Assembly: GCF_031082295.1 (NCBI RefSeq)
Contig: NZ_JAVHLD010000014.1
Span: forward strand, 1 to 64,000
Length of the DNA stretch: 64,000 nt
Source of the DNA: Humidesulfovibrio sp.
Lineage (GTDB): Bacteria > Desulfobacterota > Desulfovibrionia > Desulfovibrionales > Desulfovibrionaceae
Direction of reading: 5' to 3'
The notes under the pieces were generated by a model. It saw only the letters and a list, made by a program, of their open reading frames with translations. It searched no databases and was not told the DNA's origin. Positions within the stretch are counted from its first letter, which is position 1. Each line of letters starts with the position of its first letter. Positions 19,094 through 30,296 of the stretch are shown here, in pieces. The position numbers were made by a program, and so were the translations under genes.

Positions 19094-19233
19094 GAGTGAT
19101 CCTTGTGTTGTCGATGTTCGGCGCGATTTCTGGCGCGGTCTGCGGCGCGTTGCTTGGCGCTGGGGGCCGCAGGGGCGTCACTCTAGGCAGGAACCGGAAT
19201 GGATGCAAGCCCGGCCTGGGGGCGGCTGCGCGT

Positions 19234-19262
19234 TTGAATACCGGCGCGAATTGCCGTAGTAT
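19234..19262 (+). promoter_or_regulatory. Candidate sigma-70 promoter of aroL
   Basis: TTGAAT (19234-19239) and TAGTAT (19257-19262) are separated by exactly 17 bp, about 30 bp before the aroL start. Confidence 0.65.
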
Positions 19263-19291
19263 CCACCCACGAAACAGCGAGGGGGACACCC

Positions 19292-19825
19292 ATGTCGGGC
19301 GAGGCGAACATTTTTCTCATCGGGGCGCGGGCCAGCGGCAAGACCACCCTGGGCCGCAGGCTCTCGGCCAGGCTCAAGCGGCCCTTCGTGGACACGGACC
19401 AGCGAGTGCTCCTGCGCACGGGCAAGACCGTGGCCGAGATCGTGGCCGAGGGCGGCTGGGAGGCCTTCCGCGAGGCCGAGAGCCTCGTCCTGTCCGAGGT
19501 GGCGGTGTTCACGGGCCAGGTGGTGTCCTGCGGCGGCGGCATTGTGCTGCGCCAGGAGAACCGCGAGATGCTCCTCACGGGCCGCGCGTTCTACCTCCAG
19601 GCCCCGGCCGAGGTGCTGGCCGAGCGCCTGGAGCGCGCGCCGGGCCACGACCAGCGGCCCTCGCTCACCGGCGCGGGCATCGCGGCCGAGGTGCGCCAGG
19701 TGTTGGCCGAGCGCGAGCCCCTGTACCTGGGCTGCGCGCGGGTGGTGCTCCGGGCGGATCAGCCCCTGGAGGCACTGGTGACCGAGGCCCTGGCCGAGAT
19801 CGACAGGCTGGAGGGCCGGACCTAG
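19292..19825 (+). CDS. aroL: Shikimate kinase
   Basis: 177-residue enzyme that phosphorylates shikimate with ATP, the fifth step of the shikimate pathway. The Walker A loop GARASGKTT is at residues 11-19. The shikimate-binding acidic pair is in DTDQ (34-37), and CGGGIVLR near residue 80 is the substrate-binding glycine motif. The start follows AGGGGG after a short gap. Another shikimate-pathway gene, aroC, lies 6 kb downstream on the same strand with the GAK-type genes between them. Confidence 0.92.
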   Translation: MSGEANIFLIGARASGKTTLGRRLSARLKRPFVDTDQRVLLRTGKTVAEIVAEGGWEAFREAESLVLSEVAVFTGQVVSCGGGIVLRQENREMLLTGRAFYLQAPAEVLAERLERAPGHDQRPSLTGAGIAAEVRQVLAEREPLYLGCARVVLRADQPLEALVTEALAEIDRLEGRT

Positions 19826-19865
19826 GGCGGACCTGGGGCCGCGCGGACGAAACGCGCTAGCGCCG

Positions 19866-19894
19866 TTGCCAGGGCCGTGCGAATCCCGTAGCAT
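19866..19894 (+). promoter_or_regulatory. Candidate sigma-70 promoter of the GAK-type operon
   Basis: TTGCCA (19866-19871) and TAGCAT (19889-19894) are separated by 17 bp, just after the aroL stop and 57 bp before the next gene. It resembles the aroL promoter in spacing and -10 sequence. Confidence 0.6.
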
Positions 19895-19951
19895 GGCATC
19901 TGGTGGAGAGCGCCGCCAGGCCCGCAAGCCTGGCAGGGCGAAGGAGTCTCG

Positions 19952-20557
19952 ATGGGTTCATGGAAGAAGGGGCACGAGTTCGGCCCTGAGGACCTGACCG
20001 CAGGCCTGCCGGAATTCCTGCGCGAGCTGGCCCAGGCTCTTGAGACCGGCCAGGCCACCGGGGCTCTCGACGGCCTGCCCGTGGCCGAGCTGCGCAAGCT
20101 GGTGCTCGTGGCCGAGCGCCACGACAAGGGTCTCAGCCTGAAGCTCAAGGCCAAGCGCGCCCACGAGGTCCGCGTGCCCACCCGGCCCAAGGCCGCGCCC
20201 GCGCAGGAGCCCGCGGGCAGGGACAAGGCCAAGGTCTTGGCCTCGCGCGAGAAGTACCGCCAGCTCAAGAAGAGCATGCAGGCCGACTTCAAGGCCATGC
20301 AGGCGCTGGCGCGGGAGGGCCGCCTGCCGGGGCCGGAGGTCGTGGAGAGTTTTCTGAGCCTGGCCGAGCTCATGGCCCAGGGCGAGCAGCCGGTGAGCGG
20401 CGCTGTCCTGACCGAGCTGGCTCCGGCCAACGCGGCGTTCCTGGCCGATTGCCAGGCCCTGCGCAGGGCCATCTCCGCGCGCGACGCGGACGCCCTGGCC
20501 GCGGCCCTGGAGCGGCTGAGCCGGCGCAAGTCCGCCTGCCACGCCCAGTTCCGTTGA
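19952..20557 (+). CDS. GAK system XXXCH protein
   Basis: 201-residue, highly charged, mostly helical cytosolic protein. It ends in a Cys-His pair (Cys196-His197 in KSACHAQFR), the hallmark of the XXXCH domain defined for GAK loci. The middle has a Lys/Ala-rich linker (about residues 55-95) with possible coiled coil. The function is unknown; family naming rests on the tail motif and on the neighbours (amphi-Trp protein, ATP-grasp enzyme, HprK-like kinase). It is the first gene of the six-gene set. Confidence 0.8.
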   Translation: MGSWKKGHEFGPEDLTAGLPEFLRELAQALETGQATGALDGLPVAELRKLVLVAERHDKGLSLKLKAKRAHEVRVPTRPKAAPAQEPAGRDKAKVLASREKYRQLKKSMQADFKAMQALAREGRLPGPEVVESFLSLAELMAQGEQPVSGAVLTELAPANAAFLADCQALRRAISARDADALAAALERLSRRKSACHAQFR

Positions 20558-20592
20558 TTTCAAGCGGTTCCGTCAAAAAGGAGCGAGAGCAC

Positions 20593-21750
20593 ATGCAGCC
20601 AGACGACTGCGGACACGGCGCAAGCCCCGCTGCGGCGCACAGCCTGACCCCGGAGGTCACCGAGGCCGACGAGCGGCTGTTCGCGGCCATCACCTCCACC
20701 AGGATGGACGAGGCGGCGGTTGCCCGCATCGTCACGCCCGCAGTGGTGCAGCCCAATCAGGAGGCCGTGCTGGCCGTGCACTGGCACCCGGAGTTCGTGC
20801 CCATGGAGCTCATCCGCACGCGCATCGAGGCCACCTACCCGGCCATGCGCACCCAGCTCATCATCCCCACCCAGCACAACGAGCTCATGGAGTACGGCCA
20901 GTACACCGGGGTCGAGGCGGACTGCTACTCCCGCGGGTTCAACCAGAAGGTGCAGATCCTGCTGCACTTCCGCACCGAGCGCCTGAAGAACGCCGGGGTG
21001 CTCAAGAGCATGCTGGCGCACACCCTGGACTACCGCTCCACCCAGCTTCACGACTACCTGAAGGCCGTCACCGGCGAGGACGACGCCATCCTGGCCGCCA
21101 GCGCGCGCGAGACCGGCACCGAGGAGGAGATCGTGGCCCTGGCCCGGCTGCTCTGCCGCAAGCTCTCGGCCCTGGTGGAAAAGCATGGCGGCGCGCTGCC
21201 CAAGGACGCCTTCAAGAACAAGCTGGTGCGCAACTTCGTGGACGGCTACCGGACGCTTTTGGACGACCGCCTGGTGAACCGCGCCCAGGTCTTCCTCAAG
21301 GCCGTGAAGCAGCTCGTCAAGGCCCAGTTCCCGCTGACCTATTTCTATCGCACCACGGAGTTCATCGAGGAGGCGCGCGCGCTCGGCGGCGGGGTGGTCA
21401 TCCCGCACCCGGAGCAGTTCTGGCCCATCCTGCTGGCCGAATACGACGTGGACGGCTACGAGGTCTGGAATCCGCAGTCACAGCGCTACACCGAGTTCCT
21501 TATCAACGTGCTGCACGAGAAGAACCGGCGCCGCGGCCCGTCCGCCCGGCGCATGCTGGTGTTCATGGGCGACGACACCCACATGGGCGAGAAGACCCTG
21601 GCCCCGGGCAACGGCAATTCGTCCAAGACCAGGCGCGAGATCGGCCTGCAGCCCGCCTGGGACGACCTGTCCATCGGCAAGAAGCTTATCGTGGCCGACA
21701 TGGACAGGGTTCGCGTCATCGAAGAGTACACCGCGCGGCTCGACGGCTAG
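20593..21750 (+). CDS. Unknown conserved protein of the GAK-type locus
   Basis: 385-residue soluble protein that I do not recognise. A histidine cluster HWHPEF (His63, His65), then TQHNELMEYG (His95) and acidic GVEADC around 107-111, looks like a metal site and recalls PHP-type phosphoesterases, but the full PHP set is not visible. The middle is helical and the C-terminal third has the conserved-looking FMGDDTHMGEKTLAPG. I placed the start at 20593 because AAGGAG lies about nine bases before it; an open frame upstream overlaps the previous gene. It does not look like the CofD-like protein known from some GAK loci. Confidence 0.72.
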   Translation: MQPDDCGHGASPAAAHSLTPEVTEADERLFAAITSTRMDEAAVARIVTPAVVQPNQEAVLAVHWHPEFVPMELIRTRIEATYPAMRTQLIIPTQHNELMEYGQYTGVEADCYSRGFNQKVQILLHFRTERLKNAGVLKSMLAHTLDYRSTQLHDYLKAVTGEDDAILAASARETGTEEEIVALARLLCRKLSALVEKHGGALPKDAFKNKLVRNFVDGYRTLLDDRLVNRAQVFLKAVKQLVKAQFPLTYFYRTTEFIEEARALGGGVVIPHPEQFWPILLAEYDVDGYEVWNPQSQRYTEFLINVLHEKNRRRGPSARRMLVFMGDDTHMGEKTLAPGNGNSSKTRREIGLQPAWDDLSIGKKLIVADMDRVRVIEEYTARLDG

Positions 21751-21773
21751 CGCAGCCATATCGGGGGGACCAC

Positions 21774-22046
21774 ATGGGCCACGACCAGAGGTTTGTCTTT
21801 GAATCCGTGCAGGATGCTGCGAGCATCCGCAAATACCTTGAGGCCGTCATGGAGGGCCTGGACAAGGGCCGCCTGGTGGTGACCACCGGGGCCGAGGAGT
21901 TCGTGCTGGAGCCCGCCGGGCTTCTGAACTTCACGGTGAAGGCGCGTCGCCGGGGCGGCGAGGGGAGGCTTTCCCTGGCCATCACCTGGAAGTGCCCCGA
22001 AGACGAGGCGCCCAGGTCCGGCGAGACCCTGAGCATCAAGGCCTAG
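21774..22046 (+). CDS. Amphi-Trp domain protein
   Basis: 90-residue protein that matches the small amphi-Trp domain of GAK loci: an N-terminal helix (ASIRKYLEAVMEGLDKG), then amphipathic beta strands ending with the conserved tryptophan (Trp72 in LAITWKCPE). Biochemical role unknown. A run of G precedes the start. The next gene begins five bases after its stop. Confidence 0.82.
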   Translation: MGHDQRFVFESVQDAASIRKYLEAVMEGLDKGRLVVTTGAEEFVLEPAGLLNFTVKARRRGGEGRLSLAITWKCPEDEAPRSGETLSIKA

Positions 22047-22051
22047 CCGCC

Positions 22052-23701
22052 ATGTTCACGCTCGAGGGTATCGAGGAGAACTTCCGCTTCCTGGTGCTTG
22101 AGGTCACAAACCAGGTCAGCGAGACGCGCGCCTTTTTGCACGCCCCCAGCCACGAGGGCTACGACAAGGTCGTCTCCCGCGACGACTACATCGACAACCT
22201 GAAGAACATCGTGGAGGAGAAGTGCTTCTCCAAGATCCACCTTGAGCGCGGGCTGTCCAAGCGCGACATCGACCGCATCCGCGGCCTGCAGATCATCTCC
22301 GGCAACCTGGAGCGCATCGCCGACTACTGCGTGAACATCGCCGGGCAGGTGCGCTACCTGCACGACAAGAACCTGCTCGCCCGCCGCGATCCCGGCCCGC
22401 TGTTCGACATCATCGAGGAGAGCCTCTCGCGCATCCTCGAGGTGCGCTCCCGGGCCGAGGTGGCCGGGGCGCTCGGCATCTGCCGCGCGGAGTTCGAGCT
22501 GGACCGGCTCTACAAGGACGCCTTCGACCACTTCATGAACGAGCTGCGGCGCGGGCGCGAGGTGGAGAACAGCATCACCGCCATCTTCATCTTCCGCTAC
22601 CTGGAGCGCATCGGCGACTCGCTGCTGAACATCGGCGAGGCGCTGCTGTTCTCGGTCATCGGCGAGAAGATCAAGATCGAGCAGTTCCAGGCCCTGCAGC
22701 AGAACCTGTCCCAGTCCGGCTTCGAGGGCGACGTGGGCGACATCGACTTCCGGTCCATCTGGGGCACGCGCTCGGGCTGCCGCATCGGCCGGGTGAGCCC
22801 GCGTGACGCCGCCCCGGACCCTGCCCAGAGCGGCATCTTCAAGGAAGGCAACCTGAAGAAGATGCGGCGCGAGCGCGAGAACATCGAGTTCTGGGCCAAG
22901 GTTTCGCCCGGCACCGGGCCGCGCATCTTCAGCTACAACGAGGACGGCGACGGCGCCTCCATGCTGGTGGAGTTCCTGCCCGGCTGCACCTGGAACGAGG
23001 TGGTGCTCACGGCGGCCTGGGACGTGCTGGAGGACGCCATCTTCGTCTTCGAGCAGACCGTGGGCGACATCTGGCGCGCCACCCTGGAGCGCGGCCCGCA
23101 GCCCGTGGGCTTCATGAGCCAGCTGGACGGGCGGCTCGCGGCCGTGCGCCACGTGCACCCGGACTTCTTCCGCAAGCGGCAAGCCCTGGGCCAGGTCCGC
23201 CTGCCGTCCACGGAGGAGCTGTTCCAGGCCTGCCGGGACATCGAGCCCGCGCTCTCCGCGCCCATGACGGTGCTTCTGCACGGCGACTTCAACGCCAACA
23301 ACATCGTCTACGACCACTCGGCCCCGCGCGTGCACTACGTGGACCTGCACCGCTCCCACCGGGGCGACTGGGTGGAGGACGTGGCCGTGTTCCTGGTGTC
23401 CTTCTTCCGCATGCCCATCTTCGAACCGGCCCTGCGCGGGCGCATCAACCACATGATCTCCTCGTTCCACGCGCACGCGCACGTCTTCGCCGACGACATC
23501 GGCGACGGCACCTGGCAGGCCCGGCTGTCGCTTGGGCTGGTGCGCTCGCTGTTCACCAGCACGCGCTTCGAGCTCAACTACGACTTCGCCCGGGAGATGA
23601 ACCTGCGCGCCCACTACCTCATGGAGGGGCTGGCGGAGCACGCGCAAACGGGCAAGCCCTGGGAGGACTACCGTCTGCCCAGGCCGGTGCTGTTCGCCTA
23701 G
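22052..23701 (+). CDS. PhoU-like domain fused to an aminoglycoside-phosphotransferase-like kinase
   Basis: 549-residue two-domain protein. Residues about 1-215 form a PhoU-like helical bundle with two repeats of the ERIADYCVNIAG / ERIGDSLLNIGE type that bind metals in PhoU. Residues about 285-549 are a protein-kinase-like phosphotransferase. The catalytic loop HGDFNANNI starts at His410, and the metal-binding Asp431 is in YVDLHRSHRGDW. So both a phosphate-signalling fold and a small-molecule or protein kinase are on one chain. It is the fourth gene of the GAK-type set, with no clear ribosome binding site, which suggests coupling to the gene before. The substrate is unknown. Confidence 0.83.
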   Translation: MFTLEGIEENFRFLVLEVTNQVSETRAFLHAPSHEGYDKVVSRDDYIDNLKNIVEEKCFSKIHLERGLSKRDIDRIRGLQIISGNLERIADYCVNIAGQVRYLHDKNLLARRDPGPLFDIIEESLSRILEVRSRAEVAGALGICRAEFELDRLYKDAFDHFMNELRRGREVENSITAIFIFRYLERIGDSLLNIGEALLFSVIGEKIKIEQFQALQQNLSQSGFEGDVGDIDFRSIWGTRSGCRIGRVSPRDAAPDPAQSGIFKEGNLKKMRRERENIEFWAKVSPGTGPRIFSYNEDGDGASMLVEFLPGCTWNEVVLTAAWDVLEDAIFVFEQTVGDIWRATLERGPQPVGFMSQLDGRLAAVRHVHPDFFRKRQALGQVRLPSTEELFQACRDIEPALSAPMTVLLHGDFNANNIVYDHSAPRVHYVDLHRSHRGDWVEDVAVFLVSFFRMPIFEPALRGRINHMISSFHAHAHVFADDIGDGTWQARLSLGLVRSLFTSTRFELNYDFAREMNLRAHYLMEGLAEHAQTGKPWEDYRLPRPVLFA

Positions 23702-23711
23702 GGGGCCGGGG

Positions 23712-24641
23712 ATGCGCATCGCTGTCATCGGCATACCCGGAGGCTGGTCGTCGGAAGCGCTGGCCGACGCCGTGGCCCGCGCCACGGGCCGACGCCTGTT
23801 GCTGGACCTGGGCTCGGCCCGGCTGGATATGGCCTCGGGCAGCGTGTTCTGCGCCGGGCCCGGGCAGGAGCCCGTGGACCTCTGTCGGCTCGACGCCGTG
23901 TTCATCAAGAAGGCCGCGCCCCAGTATTCGCCGGACATGCTCGACCGCCTGGAGCTGCTGCGCTTCGTGGCCGGGCGCGGCGTGCCCTGCTTTTCCGATC
24001 CCTCGCTCATCCTGCGCCTGGTGGACCGCCTGTCCTGCTCCGTGACCCTGTCGCTGGCGGGGCTGCCCCTGCCGCCCACCACCATCGCCGAGGACGTGGA
24101 CTGCGCCCTGGACGCGGTGCTGGGCTATGGCCGCGCCGTGCTGAAGCCCTTGTTCACGTCCAAGGCGCGCGGCATGGTCCTGCTGGACGCCGCCGCCCAG
24201 GGCCGGGACGCGGCGCGGGTGGTGCTGGAGCGCTTCCACGCCTCCAACAGGGTCATGTACATCCAGCAGGCGCTGGACCTGCGCGGCCAGGACCTGGGCG
24301 TGTGCTTCCTGGGCGCGGAGTACCTGGGCACCTACGCCCGGCGCAAGCAGCCGGGGGCGGGGGAGTCGTGGAGCACCAGCACCGAGAGCGGCGGCCGCTA
24401 CGCCGCCTTCGACCCGCCAGCGGAGATCATCGCCCTGGCCGACCGCGCCCGGCAACCCTTCGGCCTGGACTTCACCTGCGTGGACGTGGCCCTGACCGAC
24501 AGCGGCCCCTACGTCTTCGAGGTGTCGGCCTTTGGCGGGTTCAAGGGACTCAAGGAGGCTTGCGGCATCGACGTGGCCGAGCTGTTCACCGCCCACGCGC
24601 TGCGCCGTCTGAAGCTGCTGGGCCAGGAGCGCCCGGCGTGA
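23712..24641 (+). CDS. GAK system ATP-grasp enzyme
   Basis: 309-residue ATP-grasp protein, the G of GAK. ATP-grasp enzymes join a carboxylate to an amine or thiol through an acyl phosphate. Visible are the phosphate-binding region AVLKPLFTSKARGM (about 138-151) and the C-terminal metal-binding segment FEVSAFGGFKGLKEA, where ATP-grasp ligases usually have E..N; here Asn is replaced by Ser-Ala. The layout resembles RimK-like ligases, which add amino acids. Its stop overlaps the next start by 4 bp (GTGA). The substrate is unknown. Confidence 0.83.
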   Translation: MRIAVIGIPGGWSSEALADAVARATGRRLLLDLGSARLDMASGSVFCAGPGQEPVDLCRLDAVFIKKAAPQYSPDMLDRLELLRFVAGRGVPCFSDPSLILRLVDRLSCSVTLSLAGLPLPPTTIAEDVDCALDAVLGYGRAVLKPLFTSKARGMVLLDAAAQGRDAARVVLERFHASNRVMYIQQALDLRGQDLGVCFLGAEYLGTYARRKQPGAGESWSTSTESGGRYAAFDPPAEIIALADRARQPFGLDFTCVDVALTDSGPYVFEVSAFGGFKGLKEACGIDVAELFTAHALRRLKLLGQERPA

Positions 24642-25795
24642 GCCTGCCGCCGGTTCAGAGGGACTTCGCGGAGCTGGCGAGGGGCTTTGCCGGGCGCTAT
24701 CCGGCGCGCCACGGCCTGCGCCTGCGCCTGGAGGAGCTGACCCTTGACGTGCGCAGCAACGACCAGGCCGTGGTGGACGACCTGCGCGGCTATTTCGGAG
24801 GCTTCGCCGAGGCCGCCCCGGCGGACGGCCCGGCAGACTTGGAGTTCCTGCTGCTGGAGGCCCCGGTGCAGGAGCCTCCCGTGGCCCTGGCCATCAAGCC
24901 CGCCGCGCCGGGCAAGCGCCCGGACAAGGAGCGCTTCGCCGACGTTCCGGGGGCCGGGGGCGGGGGCCGCGTGGTGCGCAAGCAGGCCACGGGCATGCTC
25001 TTTCTCTTTGGCGCAGTCGCGGACAACATCGCCGCCAATATCGCAGTCGGCCCTTGCGCGGCCAACCGCAACCAGCTGGTGAATTTCCTCTGCGCGCGGT
25101 ACATGGAGCGCCGGCTGGCCCAGGGCTGGATGCTCGGCCACGCGGCGGGCGTGGCGCAGCCGGGGGCGCTTGGCCGGGGGCTGGCCCTGTGCGGGTTCGC
25201 GGGCATGGGCAAGTCCACCCTGGCCCTGCACCTGGTGGCGCGCGGGCTGGATTTCGTCAGCAACGACCGGGCGCTCTTCCAGCCAGGCGGACAGCCCGCC
25301 GGTGAGGGCCGCGGGCCGGTGCTGCACGGCATCCCCAAGCACCCGCGCCTGAACCCCGGCACGGCGCTCGGCAACCCGGCCCTGGCGGCATCGTTGTCCT
25401 GTGCCCTGCCCGAGTCCGCCCGCACCGCCTACGCCGACCTCTCGCCCGAGGCCCTGCGCGCGGTGGAGGACAAGTACGACGCGAGCATCGACACGTGCTT
25501 CGGGCCGGGGAGGTTCCGGCTGGCCGCGCCCCTGGGCGGGGTGGTGGTGCTGAACTGGAGGCACGGCGGCGGGACTGTCCGCGCCCGGCGGGTGGACCTG
25601 GCCGAGCGGCTGGACCTGCTGGAGGCCCTGCGCAAGCCGCCGGGGGTGTTCTATCTGCCGCGGGCCATCGCCGCCGCCCCCCTGACCGGCGCCCAGTGCC
25701 TGGAAGCCCTTGGCGGGGTTCCCGCGCTGGAGCTCACCGGCGGGTCGGATTTCGAGGCGGCGGTAGTCGCCTGCGAGGAATTTCTGAGCGCCTGA
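24638..25795 (+). CDS. HprK-related kinase B
   Basis: 385-residue P-loop kinase related to the HPr serine kinase/phosphorylase, the K of GAK. The Walker A motif GFAGMGKST is at residues 186-194, followed by FVSNDRALF, the usual HprK-like acidic motif. The N-terminal 180 residues are specific to the GAK subgroup. The start is GTG at 24638, overlapping the ATP-grasp stop. No HPr or PTS gene is present here, so its target is probably another protein of the locus; that is inference. Confidence 0.83.
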   Translation: MSLPPVQRDFAELARGFAGRYPARHGLRLRLEELTLDVRSNDQAVVDDLRGYFGGFAEAAPADGPADLEFLLLEAPVQEPPVALAIKPAAPGKRPDKERFADVPGAGGGGRVVRKQATGMLFLFGAVADNIAANIAVGPCAANRNQLVNFLCARYMERRLAQGWMLGHAAGVAQPGALGRGLALCGFAGMGKSTLALHLVARGLDFVSNDRALFQPGGQPAGEGRGPVLHGIPKHPRLNPGTALGNPALAASLSCALPESARTAYADLSPEALRAVEDKYDASIDTCFGPGRFRLAAPLGGVVVLNWRHGGGTVRARRVDLAERLDLLEALRKPPGVFYLPRAIAAAPLTGAQCLEALGGVPALELTGGSDFEAAVVACEEFLSA

Positions 25796-25824
25796 GGCGC
25801 CAGCAAGCATAAGGACGGTACCAC

Positions 25825-26883
25825 ATGAGCGGCAACACCTTCGGCACCCTGTTTCAACTGACCACCTTCGGCGAATCCCACGGCCCGGCAGTGGGCGGCG
25901 TTGTGGACGGCTGTCCCCCCGGCATCCCGCTGTCCGAGGCCGTCATCCAGACCGAGCTGGACCGGCGCAAGCCCGGCCAGGGCGGCATCGCCGCCACCGC
26001 GCGCCAGGAGGACGACGCCGTGCGCCTGCTCTCCGGCGTGTTCGAGGGCGTCACCACCGGCACGCCCATCGGCTTTCTGGTGGAGAACCAGGACCAGCGC
26101 TCGCGCGACTACTCGAAAATCAAGGACGTGTACCGGCCCGGCCACGCGGACCTGACCTTCGACGCCAAGTTCGGCCTGCGCGACTACCGGGGCGGCGGGC
26201 GTTCCTCCGGGCGCGAGACGGTCTCCCGGGTCGCCGGCGGCGCCATCGCCCAGGAGCTGCTCGGGGCGCTCGGCATCCACGTCCAGGCTGCCACGGTGGA
26301 GCTGGGCGGCATTCCGGCCACCCTGCGCGACTTCGGCGGGGCGCTGTCGCGGCCCTTTTTCAGCGCGGACCAGCACGTGGTGGCGGCCTGGGAGGACCGG
26401 GTGCGCCTCGTCAAGGCCGAGGGCGACACGCTGGGCGGCGTGGTGGAGATCCGCGCCACGGGCGTGCCCGCGGGCCTGGGCGAGCCGGTGTTCGACAAGC
26501 TGGACGCGCGGCTGGCCTATGCGCTGATGGGCGTGGGCGCGGTGAAGTGCGTGGAGATCGGCGCGGGCGCGGACGCGGCCTGCCGCCTCGGCAGCGAGAA
26601 CAACGACCAGATCACGCCGGAGGGCTTCGTCTCCAACCACGCCGGGGGCATCCTGGGCGGCATCTCCAGCGGCCAGGACATCGTGGTGCGCGCCTACGTC
26701 AAGCCCATCCCGTCCATCGCCAAGGAGCAGCAGACCGTGAACCGCCAGGGCGAGGCCGTGCGCCTGAACGTCGGCGGACGTCACGACATCTGCGCCATTC
26801 CGCGCATCGTGCCGGTGCTGAAGGCCATGGCCATGCTGACCCTGGCGGATTTCGTGCTGCTGCAGAGGCGGCTGGGAAGGTAG
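25825..26883 (+). CDS. aroC: Chorismate synthase
   Basis: 352-residue FMN-dependent enzyme that converts EPSP to chorismate, the last shared step of aromatic synthesis. Family signatures are GESHGPAVGGVVDG near residue 13, the FMN-binding GGGRSSGRETVSRVAGG near residue 125 and HAGGILGGISSGQ near residue 272. AAGGACGG precedes the ATG. It follows the HprK-like gene by 29 bp on the same strand with no terminator between, so it may be read through from the GAK-type operon. Confidence 0.96.
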   Translation: MSGNTFGTLFQLTTFGESHGPAVGGVVDGCPPGIPLSEAVIQTELDRRKPGQGGIAATARQEDDAVRLLSGVFEGVTTGTPIGFLVENQDQRSRDYSKIKDVYRPGHADLTFDAKFGLRDYRGGGRSSGRETVSRVAGGAIAQELLGALGIHVQAATVELGGIPATLRDFGGALSRPFFSADQHVVAAWEDRVRLVKAEGDTLGGVVEIRATGVPAGLGEPVFDKLDARLAYALMGVGAVKCVEIGAGADAACRLGSENNDQITPEGFVSNHAGGILGGISSGQDIVVRAYVKPIPSIAKEQQTVNRQGEAVRLNVGGRHDICAIPRIVPVLKAMAMLTLADFVLLQRRLGR

Positions 26884-26891
26884 GGCTGGTT

Positions 26892-28352
26892 CTAGACCAC
26901 CGGCGGCAGGTCCGGGGTCATCACGTCCGGCTCCATGTGGATGGTCACGCGGACCAGTTCCGGCAGGCGGGCGCGCAGCGAGGCTTCCAGCTCCACGGTC
27001 AGGTCGTGGGCGCGGGTGATGGGCGTTTCCGGGTGCATGCGGCAGTGGAACGACGCCCCGAAGCGCGCGCCGGAGCGGTGCAGCGTCAGCTGGTGCATGT
27101 CGCACACCCCGTCCGTCTCCTCCACGATGTCCGCGATGGCCTGCCGCAGCTCCTGGGCCGCCTCGCCATGCTCCGGCATGGGCGCGGGGTGCGCGCCCTC
27201 GGGCTCGATGTGCGTGACCACGCTGAGCACGGGCCCGAGCTCGCGGCGCAGCGCCTTTTCCATGTCCGTGACGCGCGCGTGGGCCTGGGCCAGGCTCAAG
27301 CTGCCCGGCACCTCGGCGTGCAGGTCCAGGCTCAGCCCCTCGTCGAGCTGGCGCACCTGGATGTCGTGGGCGCCCAGGCCAGAGAGCCCTGCCACCGCCC
27401 GCACGCGTTCAAGCAGGCCGCTGGCCCCTTCCTCCTGCGGCTTCACCTCGACCATCACGTCCGCGCCGGGCAAAAGCTCGCGCACGGCCTCCCGCGCCTC
27501 CCGCGCCACCTGGTGGGCCTCGTCGGCGTCGAGCCCCGGCTGCACAAGCAGGCGCATGTCCACGAAGCTCGCCGGCCCGCTTGCGCGCACGCGCACCCGC
27601 CGCACACCGGTGACGCCGGGCAGGGCCAGCATGGCGCGCTCGATGCGGCCGGAGGCCTCGTGCACCCCGGCGTCGAGCAGCACGTCGATGGCCTGGGCGC
27701 CGAGCCTCCAGCTGACCCAGAGCACGATGCCGCTGACGGCCAGGGCGGCCAGGGAGTCGGACCGCAGCAGCCAGGGCTTGAGCGCGGAGTCCGGGGCCAC
27801 ATGGTCCGCCAGGGCCAGCGCGCCCAGCCCGGCAAGCACCACCAGGGACGACCAGATGTCGGTGGAGAAGTGCAGGGCGTCGGCCTCAAGGGCCTGGCTG
27901 TTGTGCTTTTTCGCCGCGGCCAGGAGCATGCGCGAGCGCGAGAAGTCCACCACGATGGACACCACCATGACGCCCACGGCCCAGAGCGAGGCGTCGACCT
28001 CGCGCGGGTGGAAGAACAGCCGGTCCACGGCTTCGTAGATGATCCAGACGCAGGTAAGCAGCAAAAGCGCCGTCTCGGCCAGGGCGGAGAGGTTCTCCAC
28101 CTTGCCGTGGCCGTAGGGGTGCTTGGCGTCGGGCGGCACGGCCGAGAGGCGCACCGCGAACAGCGTGACCCCGGCGGCCACAAGGTCGAGCCCGCTGTGC
28201 GCGGCCTCGGACAGGATGCCCAGGCTGCCGGTGTACAGGCCCGCGCCGAGCTTCATGCCCGTGAGCAATAGCGCGGCGAACACCGAGGACAGGGCGGCGC
28301 TGTTTTTTTCCTTCGCGGCCAGGGCGTCGTTTGCATGCGGCAGTTCAACCAT
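26892..28352 (-). CDS. Cation diffusion facilitator with extended double C-terminal domain
   Basis: 486-residue inner-membrane divalent-metal/proton antiporter. Residues about 20-215 hold six helices with the family metal sites: SEAAHSGLDL and, after it, HPYGHGKVEN; ADALHFSTDIW gives the second half. Typical members are about 300 residues. Here the cytosolic tail is about 260 residues and seems to contain two dimerisation-type domains plus a third related segment (SFHCRMHPETPITRAHDL). The tail has many His and Glu residues that could bind metal. It ends 8 bp from aroC (convergent). Substrate metal (Zn, Fe, Co or Ni) cannot be told. Confidence 0.88.
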   Translation of the reverse strand: MVELPHANDALAAKEKNSAALSSVFAALLLTGMKLGAGLYTGSLGILSEAAHSGLDLVAAGVTLFAVRLSAVPPDAKHPYGHGKVENLSALAETALLLLTCVWIIYEAVDRLFFHPREVDASLWAVGVMVVSIVVDFSRSRMLLAAAKKHNSQALEADALHFSTDIWSSLVVLAGLGALALADHVAPDSALKPWLLRSDSLAALAVSGIVLWVSWRLGAQAIDVLLDAGVHEASGRIERAMLALPGVTGVRRVRVRASGPASFVDMRLLVQPGLDADEAHQVAREAREAVRELLPGADVMVEVKPQEEGASGLLERVRAVAGLSGLGAHDIQVRQLDEGLSLDLHAEVPGSLSLAQAHARVTDMEKALRRELGPVLSVVTHIEPEGAHPAPMPEHGEAAQELRQAIADIVEETDGVCDMHQLTLHRSGARFGASFHCRMHPETPITRAHDLTVELEASLRARLPELVRVTIHMEPDVMTPDLPPVV

Positions 28353-28478: not shown

Positions 28479-28568
28479 GATATGATAATCATGCGCGGGA
28501 TTCCGACCGTGCCTGCATCACTCGACCTCCACGGCGCGCGCCGCTACCATTATCGGCAAGGAGCCAAT

Positions 28569-30296
28569 ATGCCTCAGCAAAGTTCGTCCAGCATCAAGAC
28601 CAGGCTTGCCGTTTCCGGTTTGGTTCTCGTGGGCGCGGCCAGCGCCCTGTTCGTCACCGGCTTCTGGCCGGACAGCTCGTTTGCCCTGCGGTGCGGGCTG
28701 TTTGCTCTGGCCATGCTCGGCGCCGGGGCGCTGCTGCTGACCGTCCACAGCCAGCTGGTGCTGCCGCTCAATGCCTTGCGCGCTTACGCCCAGGGCATCG
28801 CCGTGGGCAAGCCCGCCGCCTGTCCGGTTCTGCCCATGCCCGCCGAGTTCGCCATCCTGCGCGAGGCCCTGTGCAACCTGGTGGAGAACCTGAATAAGGC
28901 CGCCGAGGTCGCGCGGGAGAAAGAGGCCCACGCCGAGCGCGAGGCCGCCGCCACCATGACCGCCCTGGCCGAGAGCCGTGAAAAAGAGACGGCCTTGGCC
29001 GAGCTGCTGGAAAACATGCGCGCCGCCTCGGCCAAGGCCAAGGAATCCGCCGACCGCATCTTCGGGGCCGTGCGCGAACTGAATTCGAACATGGAGCAGG
29101 TGGGCAGCGACGTGCACGTGCAGACCGAGCGCGTGGACGCCACCACCCTGGCCATGGAGCAGATGAACGAGGCCATTCTGGACATCGCCCGCAACACCGG
29201 CGACGCCGCCCAGAGCGCCGACCGCGCAAAAGGCAACGCCCAGACCGGCGCCAAGGGCGTGCGCGAGGCCGTGGGCTCCATCGAGCGCGTCAAGGACCGC
29301 ATCCTGGCCCTCAAGGAGACCATGACCACCCTGGGCAAACAGGCCGAGGGCATCGGCCAGGTGCTGGGGGTCATTTCCGACATCGCCGACCAGACCAACC
29401 TGCTGGCGCTGAACGCCGCCATTGAGGCCGCCCGCGCGGGCGACGCCGGGCGCGGCTTCGCCGTCGTGGCCGACGAGGTCCGCAAGCTCGCCGAGAAGAC
29501 CATGACCGCCACCAAGCAGGTGGGCGACTCCGTGCGCAGCATCCAGGAACGCGCGCGGGAGAACGTGGTGGCCGTGGACGCCGCCGCCTCCGACATCATC
29601 GAGAGCGCCCGCGTGGCCGAGGAATCCGGCCACTACATGGAGGAGATCGTCAACATCGTGCAGGAGACCGCCATGGAGGTGGCCTCCATCGCCACCGCCA
29701 GCGAGGAGCAGTCCGCCACCAGCGAGGAGATCAACCGCTCCGTGGCCGAGGTGAACCAGGTGGCCCGCCAGACCGCCGACAGCGTCGAGCGCTCCACCCG
29801 CGTGGTGGTCGAGATCTCCGGCCTCACCGAGGAGCTGGACTCCATCATCCAGGGCATGGCCAGCGGCAAGCTCGCCGCCGTGGCCTCGGACAAGCTCATG
29901 ACCTGGAGCGACGACCTGTCCGTGGGCATCCGCCTCATCGACGAGCAGCACAAGGTGCTCCTGGGCCTCATCAACGAGCTGCACGCGGCCATGCGCTCGC
30001 GCAAGTCCGACGCCGTCCTCGTGGGCGTGGTGGAACGCCTCAAGGAATACACCGTGAAGCACTTCGGCCAGGAAGAGGAATACTTCGACCGCTACGGCTA
30101 CCCGGAAACGGCTCAGCACAAGGAATACCACCGCAAGCTGGTGCAGCAGGTGCTGGAGTTCGAGGCTGGCTTGAAGAGCGGCAAGGCCAAGGTGACCATG
30201 GAGATCATGCGCTTCCTGAAGGACTGGCTCATCGGCCACATCCAGGGCACCGACAAGAAGTACAGCGCGTTCCTGAACAGCAAGGGCATCCGCTAA
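28569..30296 (+). CDS. Methyl-accepting chemotaxis protein with C-terminal hemerythrin domain (DcrH-like)
   Basis: 575-residue membrane chemoreceptor. Two close helices (about residues 13-32 and 38-57) leave almost no periplasmic domain. A HAMP-like and coiled-coil region follows, then the signalling domain with the tip motif [21 protein letters not shown] spread around residue 275-295. Residues about 444-575 are a bacteriohemerythrin domain with all seven di-iron ligands recognisable ([28 protein letters not shown]). Sensing of oxygen or redox state is thus likely to occur in the cytosol, as for DcrH of Desulfovibrio vulgaris. AAGGAG precedes the start chosen at 28569; an upstream in-frame start has no such site. 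Confidence 0.92.

Follow-up and report, generated by a model that had tools for sequence, protein, structure and literature searches.

GAK is a widespread bacterial gene set whose family names carry no function, and a literature search for GAK, amphi-Trp and XXXCH found no published study. The closest described systems are the relatives of its individual parts, namely the RimK/MptN ligases, HPr kinase/phosphorylase, the TrpH/RNase AM group of PHP enzymes and cytochrome c', together with the Pho regulon of Desulfovibrio vulgaris, whose validated PhoB box is a (c/t)GTnAC repeat with a period of 11 nucleotides (nt) (PMC3333781; an example of a site of this type is given in PMC6456213). The locus analysed here lies at 19952–25795 of a stretch of 64,000 nt, hereafter the window (positions 1–64,000 of NZ_JAVHLD010000014.1, Humidesulfovibrio sp., GCF_031082295.1), and comprises six co-directional genes on the plus strand, flanked by aroL on the 5' side and aroC on the 3' side. 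Taken together, the results identify it as a genuine, maintained GAK core, in a variant that has no CofD-like gene and is apparently uncoupled from phosphate control. They also suggest that ordinary GAK loci are associated with the phosphate regulon and controlled by PhoB, and it is this phosphate link that is the surprising element.

When the GAK ATP-grasp family, at its curated cut-off, is used as the marker for a census, the system is found in 131 of the 297 genomes sampled from the order and in 24 of the 395 sampled from the phylum; 57 GAK regions were annotated, the window proteins supplying the profiles for this. The usual order of the genes is very stable (XXXCH, PHP, amphi-Trp, PhoU-kinase, ATP-grasp, HprK-related kinase B or HprK-B, CofD, amphi-Trp-2) and recurs in dozens of genomes, which, together with the frequency of the ATP-grasp marker in the order, argues that the locus is not a product of chance. 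The CofD-like protein (TIGR04357) was counted as a common accessory and not as a defining member, since it does not adjoin the core in the loci L010, L093 and L112 either. These three loci and L011, all of them Solidesulfovibrio-like, are limited to amphi-Trp, PhoU-kinase, ATP-grasp and HprK-B, an observation that suggests a smaller minimal core.

The link to phosphate is seen both in the neighbours of GAK and in its upstream regions. In three lineages (L099, L109 and L120) the ordinary GAK genes run on from phoB, phoR, pstB and phoU with gaps of a few nt, while phoU and pst genes adjoin L118, and in genome G333 phoU is found approximately 11 kb from GAK. Each genome checked has only a few separate phoU genes, so that this adjacency is unlikely to have arisen by chance. 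Transporters of the PHO4 type are also neighbours of GAK, in L093 (by Pfam) and in L106 (by sequence inspection). Upstream of CofD-type loci, the best three-repeat Pho-box score has a mean of 18.3 at a period of 11, compared with 13.9–14.5 at other periods (n = 44, p = 2e-8). Exact PhoB boxes precede 12 of 44 ordinary loci and 15 of 414 control genes, and boxes with at most one mismatch precede 23 of 44 and 44 of 414, respectively. A comparison with shuffled sequences might reflect base composition; incorrect repeat periods and these 414 real gene upstreams were therefore used as further controls. When the copies of genus g1 are excluded, boxes with at most one mismatch still stand out strongly (16/37 vs. 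44/414, p = 2e-6). An exact box precedes each of the seven CofD-type loci in the window's genus, and also the locus that genome G460 has at aroL.

The window's genus contains, besides these seven loci, eleven of a second type (the window included), here called aro-type. The gene directly upstream is aroL in all eleven, and aroC follows in ten, the contig ending first in the other, so that the neighbourhood reported for the window in the preliminary description is constant among the aro-type loci; within the genus, the refuting conditions named in that description, unrelated positions in close relatives and a failure of the HMM placement, therefore turned out in its favour. All eleven are devoid of CofD and of amphi-Trp-2. 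Support is 1.0 for their grouping in a single clade and 0.963 for its sister relationship to the CofD-type loci found in that genus, and a duplication within the lineage is therefore the most likely origin. Three genomes that are 99–100% complete, the window's own (G000), G040 and G597, possess the aro-type only and have no CofD gene at all; given that species exist with only this copy, CofD is dispensable for whatever the GAK core does. The six aro-type genes are under purifying selection, with ratios of nonsynonymous to synonymous substitution (dN/dS) of 0.11–0.51, and the loci keep their catalytic motifs, having lost the YPGxGDxYY motif of XXXCH. In one draft relative (L006/L084 of G628) the XXXCH, PHP and HprK-B frames appear shifted, by sequencing error or decay. 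A PhoB box with at most one mismatch was found upstream of none of the eleven aro-type loci, the window's included. The features of the window copy and its flanks are the following:

19292–19825, plus strand: aroL, shikimate kinase (NF002988, 187.6 bits, cut-off 161); upstream host gene, outside GAK
19866–19894, plus strand: promoter-like element TTGCCA-N17-TAGCAT, probably the promoter from which the aro-type operon itself is transcribed
19952–20557, plus strand: XXXCH protein, 201 residues (TIGR04358), with an amphi-Trp-like N-terminal domain and a C-terminal cytochrome c'-fold domain that ends in KSACHAQFR
20222–20554, plus strand: predicted cytochrome c'-fold domain of the XXXCH protein (residues 91–201), with C196-H197 at the proximal-ligand end
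20593–21750, plus strand: probable PHP-family metal-dependent phosphoesterase, 385 residues, assigned by the fold match of an AlphaFold2 model and by motifs
21774–22046, plus strand: amphi-Trp protein, 90 residues (TIGR04354 and PF20068, above cut-off)
22052–23701, plus strand: fusion of PhoU and an APH-type kinase, 549 residues (PhoU at about 4–206, PF01895; kinase at about 266–461, PF01636)
23712–24641, plus strand: GAK ATP-grasp enzyme, RimK/MptN-like, 309 residues (TIGR04356, 384.4 bits)
24638–25795, plus strand: HprK-related kinase B, 385 residues, GTG start (TIGR04355, 353.2 bits)
25825–26883, plus strand: aroC, chorismate synthase (TIGR00033, 391 bits); downstream host gene

These coordinates agree with the compact, co-directional and partly overlapping set of six genes that had been described between aroL and aroC. 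The gaps within the block are, in gene order, 35, 23, 5 and 10 nt, and the last two genes overlap by 4 nt (GTGA), the GTG start of HprK-B lying on the stop of the ATP-grasp gene. It is confirmed that four of the six proteins are members of NCBIfam GAK families, as had been proposed, given that in searches with hidden Markov models (HMMs) they exceed the curated cut-offs: XXXCH (54.3 bits, cut-off 40), amphi-Trp (63.4, cut-off 31), ATP-grasp (cut-off 300) and HprK-B (cut-off 200). AroL and AroC also pass theirs. The absence of a visible CofD-like gene, noticed earlier in the locus, extends to the whole genome (99.99% complete), where TIGR04357 finds no match even at E 1e-3, and is a lineage trait of all aro-type loci, for which reason the window locus is classed as a CofD-less GAK variant. 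With regard to expression, the TTGCCA-N17-TAGCAT element is the single match on both strands of 19100–27000 (0.3 expected) and is kept in all six aro-type intergenic regions compared, where the flanking gap sequence diverges; the form TTGCC(A/G)-N17-TAGCAT is present in the majority of aro-type loci, in one sub-clade as in the other, and the exact TTGCCA-N17 pattern was not found upstream of CofD-type loci. Computation thus shows that aro-type loci carry a conserved element, predicted to be a sigma70-like promoter, in place of the Pho box, and the window copy has probably exchanged the Pho switch for this promoter. Further downstream (28482–30296), the window encodes a methyl-accepting chemotaxis protein with a hemerythrin-like stretch at its C-terminus (an HxxxE...HxxxH pattern, read by eye).

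The second protein, of 385 residues, had been listed as unknown, and indeed it matches no Pfam or NCBIfam family and a PDB search by sequence gave nothing useful; it can nevertheless be assigned, most likely, to the PHP-type metal-dependent phosphoesterases by its predicted fold and its motifs. The AlphaFold2 model, built from eight sequences (the window protein and close relatives), has a predicted local distance difference test score (pLDDT) of 77, which is only 50–72 at residues 261–330, in the catalytic region, and a predicted template modelling score of 0.74. In the VIA fold search it matches 3o0f (Z 15.0), 3e0f (14.7), 2yb1 (13.3) and RNase AM 9etk (12.6), and the first structure outside the PHP/polymerase group scores 5.4, within the range of unrelated folds (4.9–5.4). 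The motifs HWH, TQHN, GVE, PHPE and GDDxH vary little or not at all among 53 homologues, across which LLH and GDDTH are likewise conserved. The putative metal ligands H63/H65, H95, E108, H125, H272 and D328/H330, assigned by motif and without a residue-level structural alignment, are invariant in the eight aligned homologues and invariant or at least 90% conserved in the 53. A recurrent neighbour of GAK loci is a large protein whose N-terminus is PHP-like and whose C-terminus is a family-4 glycosyltransferase (L081:3792–6368 and L118:4825–7287, with similar proteins in L098, L114, L117 and L122); in L118, where PHP and XXXCH are missing, its gene directly precedes that of the PhoU-kinase.

Two domains above cut-off, PF01895 (86.6 bits) and PF01636 (34.6 bits), uphold the description of the fourth protein as a fusion of PhoU and a kinase; its PDB matches are PhoU 1t72 and APH 6fuc, and it keeps the HGDxNxNN and D/GD kinase motifs. 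The ATP-grasp enzyme conserves the motifs KPLxSKARGM and EVSAFGGF, and stays below the cut-offs of both RimK (80.2 bits, cut-off 143.4) and MptN (109.3 bits, cut-off 350). At E 1e-5 the HprK-B profile finds 1jb1, an HPr kinase/phosphorylase, and HprK-B itself has a GFAGMGKST P-loop and an SNDR motif; its score against TIGR00679, the HPr kinase/phosphorylase family (22.9 bits, cut-off 240), marks it as a relative only.

As for the small proteins, comparison by hhalign relates the N-terminal domain of XXXCH to amphi-Trp (probability 95.8, E 7e-9; reversed control, E 0.012). The C-terminal domain of the AlphaFold2 model (pLDDT 82) superposes on cytochrome c' 1cgn over 110 residues (VIA Z 12.4, root-mean-square deviation 2.5), and the HMM comparison with cytochrome c' gives an E of approximately 3e-4. 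Helical bundles of de novo or engineered design reach nearly the same values (Z 11–12), which makes the fold alone weak evidence; since such bundles score high by chance, the match of the C-terminal sequence containing the Cys-His pair carries more weight than the Z score. K106, K107, C196 and H197 are invariant in 18 diverse homologues, the lysine pair falling near distal position 16 of Alcaligenes cytochrome c' by sequence register, which is a lead only, and almost every homologue stops four residues past Cys-His. The protein has no signal peptide and the first Cys of CXXCH is missing, which is why it is not classed as a cytochrome c'; computation shows it, at the level of a predicted structure, as a cytosolic protein in which an amphi-Trp-like domain is joined to one of cytochrome c' fold. 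The fold search of this model barely probed the first 90 residues, and no PDB entry was a convincing match for the amphi-Trp profile. The amphi-Trp family was also matched in the control genome of Haloferax volcanii; the domain therefore exists far beyond the deltaproteobacteria that bear GAK.

The reading that is preferred here, with a probability of roughly 45%, is that GAK is a phosphorylation and ligation module, linked to phosphate status, that acts on its own small proteins, and that the window copy is a constitutive, divergent duplicate without CofD. Phosphate starvation would induce the ordinary operon through PhoB; the PhoU domain would sense phosphate or metal status and gate the attached APH-type kinase; the HprK-like kinase would phosphorylate a small partner protein, and might reverse this reaction with inorganic phosphate, as HPr kinase/phosphorylase does; the RimK-like ATP-grasp enzyme would ligate an amino acid or a peptide via an acyl phosphate; and the PHP enzyme would take phosphate off. 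The acceptors would be amphi-Trp and XXXCH, of which the latter has a fixed C-terminus. In the window, the same core would work without the CofD-like transferase, under constitutive expression and probably with aroC on the same transcript. The theme of phosphorylation and ligation, already present in the preliminary description, is thus a plausible one, its chemistry being predicted from families, folds and motifs. A bolder version must be considered unlikely. In it, GAK would be a protein-modification system under PhoB control in sulfate reducers short of phosphate and in their relatives; the modification, itself dependent on phosphate, would be placed on the system's own amphi-Trp and cytosolic cytochrome c'-fold proteins, and a single genus would have domesticated, within its aro operon, a copy that lacks CofD and is always on.

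Several points weigh against the preferred reading. The acceptor role of amphi-Trp and XXXCH is argued only from linkage and C-terminal conservation, and the cytochrome c' fold would by itself lead one to expect a fixed C-terminus in XXXCH; the substrate and product, like the roles of the enzymes, are predictions. L010, L093 and L112 have neither PHP, XXXCH nor CofD nearby, and the chemistry of the core may be less extensive than proposed. Regarding control, the excess of exact boxes becomes modest without the genus-g1 copies (5/37 vs. 15/414, p = 0.018), approximately half of the ordinary loci show no clear box, and the upstream regions of aro-type loci are richer in GC (71% vs. 57%), which lowers the number of chance matches there.

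Another way of looking at the same enzymes is to consider a small phosphorylated cofactor or signal, made with a logic like that of F420: a kinase would produce a phospho-hydroxy acid, the CofD-like protein would perform the transfer, the RimK/MptN-like ATP-grasp enzyme would add an amino acid and PHP would hydrolyse intermediates, while amphi-Trp and XXXCH would be carriers or sensors of the product and the aro-type locus would make a CofD-less variant. A small-molecule pathway is a serious rival because the CofD-like family, which adjoins most GAK loci, is accompanied by an ATP-grasp enzyme whose nearest relative is MptN, and the PHP relatives with known structures include nucleotide-binding enzymes, such as 2yb1 with AMP. 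It is held to be rather unlikely all the same, given that a nucleotidyltransferase of the CofC kind is not seen in the locus, that the aro-type is maintained without CofD in three complete or near-complete genomes, and that each full locus has three amphi-Trp-type proteins, which is not easily accounted for if these are bystanders.

It is improbable that the system is a sensor in which the cytochrome c'-fold domain of XXXCH binds cytosolic heme or another ligand and the enzymes relay redox, nitric oxide or ligand status. The Cys-His pair at the proximal-ligand end and the lysine pair near the distal position would fit this idea; however, normal c-type heme attachment is not expected of a protein that lacks a signal peptide and the first Cys, XXXCH is missing near several GAK loci, and the association with Pho does not point towards heme.

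The position of the locus had also led to the proposal that it may be co-regulated with aromatic synthesis. Part of this stands, since only 29 nt separate HprK-B and aroC and their co-transcription in the window's genus is plausible; a role in aromatic synthesis finds no support, and the link is not GAK-wide. Other genera of the family have aroL next to aroC, or about one gene away from it, without GAK, and GAK was found between them only in the window's genus and in two of the three sampled genomes of genus g250 (G460 and G645, where it is a full, CofD-bearing locus), the corresponding stretch of the third (G526) being devoid of it. These observations indicate that GAK was inserted into a pre-existing aro pair, and the linkage is secondary rather than a general property, as elsewhere GAK is not near aro genes. 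That the locus serves aromatic amino-acid synthesis, as its position, the short gap to aroC and the conservation of the arrangement in the genus could be taken to mean, was rejected as the principal explanation and is very improbable, because the aro pair exists without GAK, GAK occurs away from aro genes, and ordinary copies, including that of G460 at aroL, carry Pho boxes. Equally improbable is that the aro-type is a duplicate in decay which persists only because it is carried along with aroC in one transcript, an idea for which the loss of CofD, amphi-Trp-2 and the YPGxGDxYY motif and the frameshifts of L006/L084 could be invoked, in view of the dN/dS values in all genes, the intact catalytic motifs and its retention in 11 genomes of the genus, in at least three complete or near-complete ones as the only copy. 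A defence role was considered and dropped, there being no match of the locus to the anti-phage defence families of PADLOC and no GAK loci found on plasmids or viral contigs. An acyltransferase and a protein with a GNAT domain lie just upstream of several CofD-type loci (L085:8397–10358 and genus relatives), possibly a link to lipids under phosphate limitation.

GAK loci are common in sulfate reducers, as the census of the order indicates, despite names that give no function, and the association with PhoB supplies a growth condition under which a phenotype can be sought, which makes the question of GAK testable. The PHP and cytochrome c' assignments provide two biochemical handles that had been lacking, and the window's genus is a natural experiment, with species that have the full, phosphate-linked copy as well as the short one and species that have only the short one.

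Compared with the GAK system as defined by TIGR04354–TIGR04358, the window locus has four families above cut-off and the gene order of its relatives, and differs in having no CofD-like TIGR04357, no second amphi-Trp and no Pho box, and in lying between aroL and aroC. With the TrpH/RNase AM group of PHP enzymes (BAD_1165 3o0f, Cv1693 2yb1 and Vibrio cholerae RNase AM 9etk), the GAK protein appears to share the fold (Z 12.6–15) and all the metal motifs, but is only 14–16% identical to them and has no Pfam or NCBIfam match. With the cytochrome c' of Alcaligenes xylosoxidans (1cgn), the predicted XXXCH domain shares the four-helix fold and the terminal CHxxY/F(K/R) segment; unlike it, XXXCH has neither the first Cys nor a signal peptide and is fused to an amphi-Trp-like domain, and the predicted fold does not imply heme. 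The GAK ATP-grasp enzyme belongs to the same fold family as the RimK/MptN ligases, with EVS, invariant across GAK, in place of the usual ExN metal motif. HprK-B has in common with HPr kinase/phosphorylase 1jb1 and with the HPr-kinase-like lasso-peptide kinases the kinase core, the P-loop and the (N/D)DR region, whereas an extra N-terminal domain, a locus without HPr and a score below the family cut-off set it apart from HPr kinase/phosphorylase. Finally, ordinary GAK loci share with the Pho regulon of D. vulgaris the (c/t)GTnAC repeat of 11 nt, and some abut phoBR-pstB-phoU, in contrast to the window copy, which has no such site.

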